Positions 34,179 to 36,965 of a stretch of 64,000 bases of DNA are shown here, in pieces. The stretch is from positions 7,135,001-7,199,000 of the forward strand of contig JAKZAN010000006.1 of the NCBI GenBank assembly GCA_023053545.1, written 5' to 3'. Below the pieces are notes generated by a model. The model saw only the letters and a list, made by a program, of their open reading frames with translations, ran no database searches and had not been told where the DNA came from. Origin of the DNA: Lepidurus packardi. Its lineage: Eukaryota; Arthropoda; Branchiopoda; Notostraca; Triopsidae. Position 1 is the stretch's first letter. Each line of letters begins with the position of its first letter. The position numbers and the translations under genes are program-made.

Positions 34179-36965
34179 ATGGATTCATTCAATGGAACAA
34201 CTCGTTTTCAGTCTAGTGAGCAAAACAATAAAGCTATTGTTATTCTACAAGACAACTTAGATGACTTCTTCCTTGTACTAATGGGAAGCATAGTACTCTG
34301 TAATTACAACTAATTAACGATGTTTCAAAGTAAATAGTTTTTGTATAGTTCTCCAAGCAGGGTTCGCTTTTCTGGAAGCTGGTTTCGTTCGAAGGAAAAA
34401 TACCACGAGTATTTTACTGAAGAATTTCTTGGACAGTGGTAACACGAACCAGAACAGTGAACAATTAATTCCTAACCGTAATCTTAGCTATAAGTTGCCT
34501 TCTGTATTGGCTGGTTGGCTATGCCTTCGCATATGGTGACGGAAACAGCTTTATAGGAACTCGATACTTCGCTTTAATAGATCTGCCGCGGAATAAATAC
34601 GCACATTGGTTCTTTCAATATGCATTCGCAGCGACTTCTACTACAATAGTGTCCGGTTCTGTTGCTGAACGTTGCAGTATGGTCACTTATTTTGCGTACA
34701 GCGTGTTAATATCTGGTAAGTAAAATCATTCCATGTCGAAACGGCGATCCTGAGCATGCTTCACAATGCACAATTATTAGTCTTCCGCAAGAAAACTAGT
34801 TTCCTTTATATTATGCGTATCTTTGATTCATAAATTGAGTCGGGGAAAGCGCGTACGCAATCCCCACTACCAAAAATTATGCACCCGAAATACCCACATA
34901 AGGGGTATTCGCAGAAGCCCCTCCGACCGGAGTGCAATGGCCGGTGAACTCCTGGAGGAACCACCTTCGTGATCATGGTATCCTCGGCGCCAAGTAAGTA
35001 TGCTTTCCCTGGCTCACGTTAACGGCTACGAGGGTGTACAGCGTATTTGTAAAACGCTTACGATCGACCTGCCCACTCGTATGATCCTTAACGATTTCTC
35101 GGCCAGATTTTCAAAGAAAAAAGCTACAAAACCTCAAAAACAGATTCAGCTTTACATTATGAATGCTAAACATAGATGACATATTGCAAATATTCGCTAA
35201 AAACTTAAAAAAGACTCCAGTAAAAGGATTGAGATATTTGACAAAAACGTGACGCGTTACGTACGTAACAAGCTTGATACTAATATTTACCTCTAACCAT
35301 GAATAATTTCTGTCACTTTAAGAACAGAAAACCTGAGTTACTTAATTTTAAAACAGAATCTGAGGCAAAACACCGTGAGCTTACTAGAAAAAAAATAGAA
35401 AATGTGCCACGCGACGGCATCTTAACGTAAAAGATGTTAATTATAGTAACTTTATTGTGACTAAGTTAATGTATTGAACGTAACTTCTCAATTTCCTTAC
35501 AAATAAAACAATTAAACATAATAAATAATAAGCTACTATCTTTTATAAGAACAAAGCACAGGCCAAATTACAATTGAACGCATGTCTGCCCTTTGTTTTG
35601 TTGTCAGGTCTGCCAGCCGCGGTATGGCATATCATTTAGTCACCTGCTTTCACTATTTTTACTACAGAGTTATACTCTTATGCAATAATAATAAGCCTGT
35701 TTAATCTTACAGGATTTGTTTATCCCGTAATTTCCCACTGGGCCTGGTCAGAAAAAGGATGGCTGAAAACTCTGGGATTTGTTGATTTTGCCGGCAGCGG
35801 AGTTGTGCACTTGACTGGTGGCGCTATTTCGATCCTGGCGGCCTACTTTGTCGGACCTCGCATTGGCCGGATTGACTGTGGCGGTAAATTCAAAGAAATC
35901 CCTGGACACTCCGTCCCGGTATGGAATTTCGGAAACAGACTCTTACAAATCTAATCATTTAGCAATTAGCTTGCGTTGCTAGGTACTTTCATCTTAAATC
36001 TGGGATTTCTGGCGTTCAATGGAGGATCACATGGGAGTATTGTTCATGAAGGAGATGGAATTGTTCTGGAACGTTCGGTCTTTAACACGGTATTGTCAGG
36101 CGCCGGTGGTGCCATAACTGCTCTGTTCTTCAATCGTTTCGTGGTTGAAAGAAAAAACAAACAATGGAGCTGTCTAACGACCATCAACGGATCAATAATT
36201 GGGATGGTAAGAAATGCATTATGTTTATCTCACAATGATAACTAAAAACGCGACAGGTTTCCGTCTGCTCTGGATGCAATCAATATACTCCGCTCGCCGC
36301 TTTAAGTACAGGAGTAATAGCCGCTTTGGTATTTATTAGCCTACGTTCACTGCTACCTTTAATTAAGCGTAAGTTATATAATGAAAAGTTATAATCCCTG
36401 ATTAAGTTTTACTCTATCTTGTTATAGTCGACGATCCCTTAGACGCTGTGCCGGTACACTTCGGTGGTGGTCTCTGGGGCTTACTTGCCTTACCTTTCCT
36501 TGGACCTGTGGGTATTATACAAACTTGGAGCTTGGAATCGGGAAAAGTTAACTAGAAACACCAGTTATATCACATCTAAACTACTTTTCGTCTAATTTCT
36601 TGCAGCAACTGTTGTACAACCTCGTAGGAGCCATCGCTATTTGCTGCTGGTCTTGGCTACTTGCTGGAACATTATTTTCTCTACTTCAGTTAACTGGGTA
36701 TCACCGGCCCAGACCAGAAGTAGAGATTTTAGGTTTGCCTTAATTACTTCCTGCATCCGATACTTTCATAAATGTGTTGCATGCGGATACAGGTTTAGAT
36801 TGGGCTGTCCATAAAGAACCAGCCTATCCCTATGAGTCAAATGCCATGTTTTTCGACAAAGCTCCAGTGATGAGTCAGACGAAAGTTGTCGAGATCAACT
36901 CACGGACTCGACCTCCTTCACAAGCCTGGCGAGCTTCTTCATTGGGTATATGGATGTTCGTTTAG
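34179..36965 (+). CDS. AMT-type ammonium transporter
   Basis: Nine exons (34179-34299, 34358-34438, 34488-34715, 35713-35918, 35970-36206, 36257-36368, 36428-36546, 36606-36732, 36793-36965) encode 467 residues in one frame. Family marks in order: GFAFLEAGFVRRKNT, the signature DFAGSGVVHLTGGA with the first pore histidine at about residue 176, FNGGSHGSI, SGCNQYTP, and VPVHFGGGLWG with the second pore histidine at about 339. Eleven hydrophobic helices are expected; the short cytoplasmic tail begins after LLQLTGYHRP (GLDWAVHKEPAYPY). AMT/Mep proteins pass ammonium through a trimeric plasma-membrane channel and are known in invertebrates but absent from vertebrates, which use Rh proteins. Exon 2 has a tandem AAGCAG acceptor: only the upstream AG restores the family sequence (SGFAF). 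The third intron (997 bp against about 50-60 for the rest) carries a U1 snRNA gene on the other strand. Confidence 0.93.
34839..35001 (-). ncRNA. U1: U1 spliceosomal snRNA (C9U variant)
   Basis: Reading the minus strand from 35001 gives a full-length U1 of about 163 nt (human 164). It has the 5' end ATACTTACTTG; stem-loop I with the U1-70K loop (CCATGATCACGAAGGTGG); stem-loop II with the U1A loop (CATTGCACTCCGG); the third stem; the Sm site AATTTTTGG between stems; and the 3' stem GTGGGGATTGCGT...CGCGCTTTCCCC. The one departure in the recognition sequence is nucleotide 9, U instead of C, the base that pairs with position -1 of the 5' splice site. Every structural element looks intact, so this is probably an expressed gene or a recent copy rather than an old pseudogene. 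It sits antisense inside intron 3 of the ammonium transporter. I could not identify its proximal sequence element with certainty. Confidence 0.93.

Follow-up and report, generated by a model that had tools for sequence, protein, structure and literature searches.

Among the U1 snRNAs described in animals, the nearest counterparts of the gene reported here are the neoblast-enriched U1C1 and U1C2 of the planarian Schmidtea mediterranea, in which the base that anneals to donor position -1 is U instead of C (PMC6312358; this and the other papers are cited for the open-access portions covered). They occur alongside canonical U1, and their predicted structure is overall similar to that of the canonical RNA. 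The human variant U1 genes (vU1) are diverged U1 paralogues, many of them with changes in the donor-pairing arm, and make up a small fraction of U1, vU1.8 amounting to about 1% in stem cells. In vU1.3/.4 a C-to-T change in the arm is said to allow AT donors (PMC5159530, PMC13172311), so the changed position would differ from that of C9U. In Drosophila, 95Cc and 82Eb are minor variants among the few U1 genes of an arthropod and are reported as not pseudogenes; their changes, at positions 123 and 134, fall within or close to the Sm site and leave the 5' arm unchanged (PMC10645366).

Here we describe a U1 gene with C9U in Lepidurus packardi. The window analysed is a stretch of 64,000 nucleotides, C5:7135001-7199000, and the gene within it is called copy C. 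Like U1C1 and U1C2, copy C has U in place of C opposite donor position -1, keeps the overall structure of U1 and coexists with canonical U1; like the human vU1 genes, it is a diverged paralogue with a changed donor arm; and like the Drosophila variants, it is a minor form in a small arthropod U1 gene set. It differs from the planarian case in three respects. The planarian U1C copies are expressed and enriched in neoblasts, whereas copy C is a predicted gene; 11 U1 variants were validated in the planarian (PMC6312358), whereas three U1 genes were found here; and the present analysis also covers which base the sampled donors have at -1. In the open-access literature covered, no C9U U1 came to light in an arthropod, nor any link between C9U and the -1 profile of a genome, and the covered portions of PMC2721852, PMC4291461, PMC8773931 and PMC8942981 contain no C9U case. 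The planarian report means that C9U has been seen in animals before, including in an expressed U1. What is new is a C9U U1 in a crustacean and an unusual donor profile beside a C9U U1.

Identification of the variant gene and its family

A search of the window against Rfam gave a single match above threshold, the U1 gene copy C, at 132.3 bits compared with the RF00003 gathering score of 69.5 and with model positions 1-166 covered (Table 1). This full-length match and the U at nucleotide 9 bear out the first-pass annotation, which had placed a U1 snRNA with C9U at this locus; the start that it gave, 34839, should be one base higher. The 5' end of copy C reads AUACUUACUUGG, with U at nucleotide 9 where the Rfam consensus has C, and the recognition arm is AUACUUACUUG as against AUACUUACCUG in canonical U1. 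Nucleotides 1-8 (AUACUUAC) are complementary to the intron start. With U at nucleotide 9, copy C is a variant and not a canonical (C9) U1, and in presenting U to donor position -1 from an otherwise intact U1 it is of the planarian U1C type.

Table 1. Features of copy C and its surroundings, and the two other U1 genes (window positions unless a contig is named)
Feature	Position	Strand	Remarks
U1 snRNA gene copy C, 162 nt, C9U	34840..35001	-	Rfam RF00003, full-length match; also located by the genome-wide search
5' splice-site recognition arm AUACUUACUUG	34991..35001	-	U9 at window base 34993
Stem-loop I loop GAUCACGAAG	34965..34974	-	agrees with Rfam consensus
Stem-loop II loop AUUGCACUCC	34929..34938	-	Rfam alignment
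Sm site AAUUUUUGG	34870..34878	-	Rfam alignment
Proximal-sequence-element-like core TAAGCG-N4-ANAAATA	35044..35060	-	-59 to -43 of copy C
GGAAAGC	35002..35008	-	-7 to -1; identical in the three U1 genes
3'-box-like TATGAATCAAAGA	34820..34832	-	just downstream of copy C; like other snRNA gene flanks; by eye
Ammonium transporter intron, 997 bases	34716..35712	+	flanking exons match PF00909; borders by eye
GCCAAGTAAGTAT, complement of the U9 arm	34989..35001	+	perfect donor-like word in the transporter intron
U1 copy A	C3:6076642-6076804		155.3 bits; C9
U1 copy B	C3:6078027-6078189		144.3 bits; C9

In the Rfam search of the 108.6 Mb assembly, which scored 41 of 1413 first-look candidates, three U1 genes (A, B and C) lay above the Rfam cut-off. 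Copies A and B form a tandem pair, are 94% alike and share the 5' end AUACUUACCUGG; C and A share 77% identity. With copy A as the query, a DNA search returned exactly the same three U1 places, and with copy C as the query it matched C and A only, so that neither these searches nor the Rfam search gave a further U1 copy. Comparison of nucleotide 9 across the genome copies, two with C9 and one with U9, supports the earlier suggestion that copy C belongs to a mixed U1 family. The word ATACTTACYTGG, counted across the genome with the U1 genes included, had T at 16 of 23 places and C at 7; the backwards control gave 14 places, and this count was left unused as evidence.

Several other sequences came to light in the assembly. 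Three full-scoring U2 genes (179-181 bits) were accompanied by 25 weaker matches, seven of them above the cut-off, and these weaker matches suggest pseudogenes or chance. Open COX1 frames, stop-free in the standard code, were found at L023, L024 and L025 (contigs C52, C214 and C43), outside the large contigs; they may be bacterial, perhaps from associated bacteria present in the assembly. Many COX1 fragments with in-frame TGA occur on C1, C2, C4, C5, C6, C21 and C38 (for example L046), and one COX1 fragment translated under table 5, the invertebrate mitochondrial code, gave a COX1-like protein with one stop. The TGA-bearing fragments suggest nuclear copies of mitochondrial DNA.

Structure, flanks and genomic setting of copy C

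The fold of copy C is well kept. Of the 46 pairs of the Rfam structure, 43 are standard in copy C and 44 in both A and B. The Sm site reads AAUUUUUGG, and the statement that the stem-loops, four in number, and the Sm site are intact therefore stands. Loop I, the U1-70K site, retains the consensus in copy C, while model position 35 is G in A and B; loop II is the U1A site. Copy C differs from A at 22 of the 92 paired positions, and seven pairs are altered on both sides with pairing kept. When 22 changes were placed at random among paired sites, ignoring mutation bias, 20,000 neutral simulations averaged 1.05 compensated pairs and 29.9 standard pairs, and not one of them attained seven of the former or 43 of the latter. 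At the 70 strongly conserved Rfam columns, copy C departs from the consensus 6 times, A 5 times and B 7 times, and C9U is the sole such departure of copy C within the 5' arm.

The three U1 genes also have upstream elements in common. The proximal-sequence-element-like core begins at -59 in A and C and at -58 in B, and with it the stretch next to the gene (Table 1) stands out from upstream flanks that have mostly diverged among the three. In the window the core has one mismatch-free occurrence and no other place with one mismatch; since 0.59 occurrences with up to one mismatch are expected there, its occurrence alone is weak and the argument is its position. GTA stands four bases ahead of the core in A and B but not in copy C, whose own GTA sits nearer the ANAAAT part. 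A looser promoter pattern drawn up by eye (GTA, 9-10 bases, WANAA), located at -63 to -60, fits A and B together with the three U2 and three U5 genes, that is, eight of the nine U1, U2 and U5 genes, copy C alone missing it.

A pseudogene was set aside as the leading reading because of the compensated pairs and the promoter-element core common to the U1 genes; the missing leading GTA is a small point in its favour. Copy C is probably a transcribed gene. The first-pass proposal that it is expressed gains indirect support from the promoter core, albeit without the leading GTA, the 3'-box-like stretch and the compensated structure.

Copy C lies within an intron of an ammonium transporter gene and is antisense to it. 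The transporter transcript therefore contains GCCAAGTAAGTAT, the perfect complement of the U9 arm. This donor-like word, at 34989-35001 on the plus strand, misled the gene finder described below.

Composition of the sampled donors

Donors were predicted by a small home-made gene finder trained on C5:7100001-7300000 (200 kb of one chromosome), which never scored the -1 base and which recovers recognisable genes. A first working run (268 introns, 31% C+T at -1) was too permissive and was discarded; later runs had a stronger intron penalty. The main set consists of 143 introns minus 19 copies in an identical tandem duplication, leaving 124 donors, and a stricter run gave 74 distinct donors. C or T stands at -1 in 16% of the 124, compared with 52% in the background before GTA, which bounds the false-donor share at roughly 30%.

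A homology-checked set was assembled from seven genes whose products match PDB chains of PKG, V-ATPase H, a CP2-type factor, ROR-type nuclear receptors, long-chain acyl-CoA dehydrogenase, C1QBP and TopBP1. Of 55 junctions, 28 lay inside ungapped alignment stretches and were kept; they were picked by eye, and the sequence was visible during the choice. The remaining 27 sat at an alignment edge, fell outside the alignment or had been joined incorrectly. Among the 28, one HR3 junction (before AHEELW) is near the alignment start and one TopBP1 junction was placed by equal-length coordinates only. Two three-gene runs (one CP2-like) in the 200 kb have identical proteins and junctions and are about 22.5 kb apart. 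They lie beyond the window, at window coordinates 128045-141134 and 150526-163615 (C5 about 7.263-7.276 and 7.286-7.299 Mb), and suggest either that a tandem duplication took place very recently or that the region was duplicated in the assembly.

The base at -1 was G in 66, A in 38, T in 11 and C in 9 of the 124 donors over the 200 kb. The stricter set contained 39 G, 26 A, 5 T and 4 C, and the checked set 17 G, 10 A and 1 C (95% interval for A(-1), 19-56%); laxer settings over the 200 kb gave A(-1) in 45 of 153 and 52 of 184 donors. About a third of the sampled donors thus have A(-1), above the figure for human donors, where A(-1) is near 9% and G(-1) near 80%. The elevation of A(-1) noted earlier, at 28% of 69 donors, recurs in direction in all our sets, yet inside the window A(-1) reaches only 21-23% (8/36, or 11/53 and 15/66 under laxer settings).

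The donor consensus is otherwise weak (n = 124: +3A 85%, +4A 66%, +5G 45%, +6T 44%), and its strength on the intron side was compared between donors grouped by their -1 base. G occurs at +5 in 15 of 38 A(-1) donors versus 28 of 66 G(-1) donors (Fisher p 0.84) and, in the checked set, in 4/10 versus 8/17; T occurs at +6 in 34% versus 45%. Because neither +5G nor +6T is higher than in G(-1) donors, A(-1) donors, like G(-1) donors, need no stronger intron side, as is expected if A(-1) is paired. Donors with C or T at -1 have +5G in 13 of 20, and the contrast with A(-1) (p 0.097) is only suggestive. Subsets chosen by flanking coding score showed a striking contrast, with +5G in 1 of 10 A(-1) donors as against 6/6 pyrimidine(-1) donors under one setting and 6/8 under a second; given their small size and post hoc selection, they were not relied on.

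Human donors are 53.6% //GURAG and otherwise 45.1% AG//GU, with little else left, and this -1/+5 pattern has been ascribed to U5 and U6 (PMC11732430). U5 and U6 scores are anticorrelated in Drosophila, C. elegans, zebrafish and human (PMC9803359), and exonic and intronic consensus bases are negatively coupled in almost all of 30 species, +6T:-1G being the strong pair in the metazoan group (PMC10599564). In our sample, 53 of the 124 predicted and 11 of the 28 checked donors fit neither //GURAG nor AG//GU. The commonest -2/-1 pair among the 53 is AA|GT (18 donors). G(-1) is also common among the unclassed donors (17/53 predicted and 4/11 checked, with C(-1) in 1/11 checked), so part of the pattern is plain donor relaxation. 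The 68 donors without +5G comprise 23 with A and 7 with C or T at -1, against a background before GTA in which T is as common as A (0.32 and 0.27). In computed duplexes, U9 was the better partner for all 38 A(-1) donors and C9 for all 66 G(-1) donors, as expected by construction.

The sequences of U5 and U6 are unremarkable at the relevant sites. U5 loop 1 is GCCUUUUAC, the canonical form, in all three genes, and a search for the word ACAGAGA located the U6 box in the four loci examined among eight U6 matches. An altered U5 or U6 was therefore rejected as the cause of A(-1), and of the U1, U5 and U6 sequences examined only U9 would favour A(-1).

Possible roles of U9 in donor recognition

We tentatively favour, at a probability of about 0.43, a working third U1 gene. 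Since the U1-70K, U1A and Sm sites are kept, the RNA of copy C would probably assemble into an ordinary U1 snRNP. C9U would alter one donor contact, with U9 forming a Watson-Crick pair with A(-1) and a wobble pair with G(-1), and a pool of C9 and U9 U1 would hold donors of both kinds. The earlier idea that the variant is suited to A(-1) donors is consistent with the share of A(-1) at about a third, the lack of a +5G excess in A(-1) donors and the canonical U5 and U6; on the other side, G(-1) donors are also unusually weak. A fit of U9 to A(-1) donors is plausible and circumstantial, and the causal link, like transcription and snRNP assembly, is what we infer from these data. That one in three U1 genes and roughly one in three donors carry the matching bases may be a coincidence.

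It is quite possible that the gene works and C9U is nearly neutral, the wobble with G(-1) being sufficient and A(-1) being common through general relaxation of donors, by way of short introns, intron definition or other factors in the hand-over from U1 to U6. The weakness of donors at +4, +5 and +6 as well, the share of G(-1) among unclassed donors and the two genes that still encode C9 U1 are all in keeping with this. Because donors are weak in general (+5G 45%), such relaxation may explain A(-1) without U9, and the -1/+5 pattern may owe its shape to something other than U1 pairing. Near-neutrality sits less well with the excess of A over C and T among donors without +5G, which arises despite a background in which T is like A. 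At the opposite end, U9 U1 and the donors may have co-evolved, with AA//GU lacking +5G as a third large class beside //GURAG and AG//GU, one that Watson-Crick pairing of U9 with A(-1) would make possible, and with C9 and U9 sharing introns; this we regard as unlikely.

More doubtful still is that the U9 copy is silent or starting to decay, or that U9 is a variant of a single animal or an assembly error. Copy C has the lowest Rfam score of the three (132.3 versus 155.3 and 144.3), a strongly conserved position is changed, and the GTA that leads the promoter element in A and B is missing, but the promoter-element core, the loops, the Sm site and the compensated pairs have all been kept. A mainly non-donor role for copy C, in protection from early polyadenylation or in action on the antisense transporter transcript, is highly improbable: that transcript bears the exact complement of the U9 arm with the gene antisense in its intron, and deletions of single U1 genes in Drosophila brought limited splicing change with many polyadenylation events affected (PMC10645366), but the nesting in the intron may be chance.

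Copy C bears on whether U1 itself, or U5 and U6 at hand-over, sets the donor preference at -1. An animal with very few U1 genes, one copy altered at exactly the -1 contact, canonical U5 loop 1 and U6 box, and sampled donors rich in A(-1) but lacking a +5G excess is a natural test of that question. If C9U arose independently in the planarian and in Lepidurus packardi, the same contact was changed twice.
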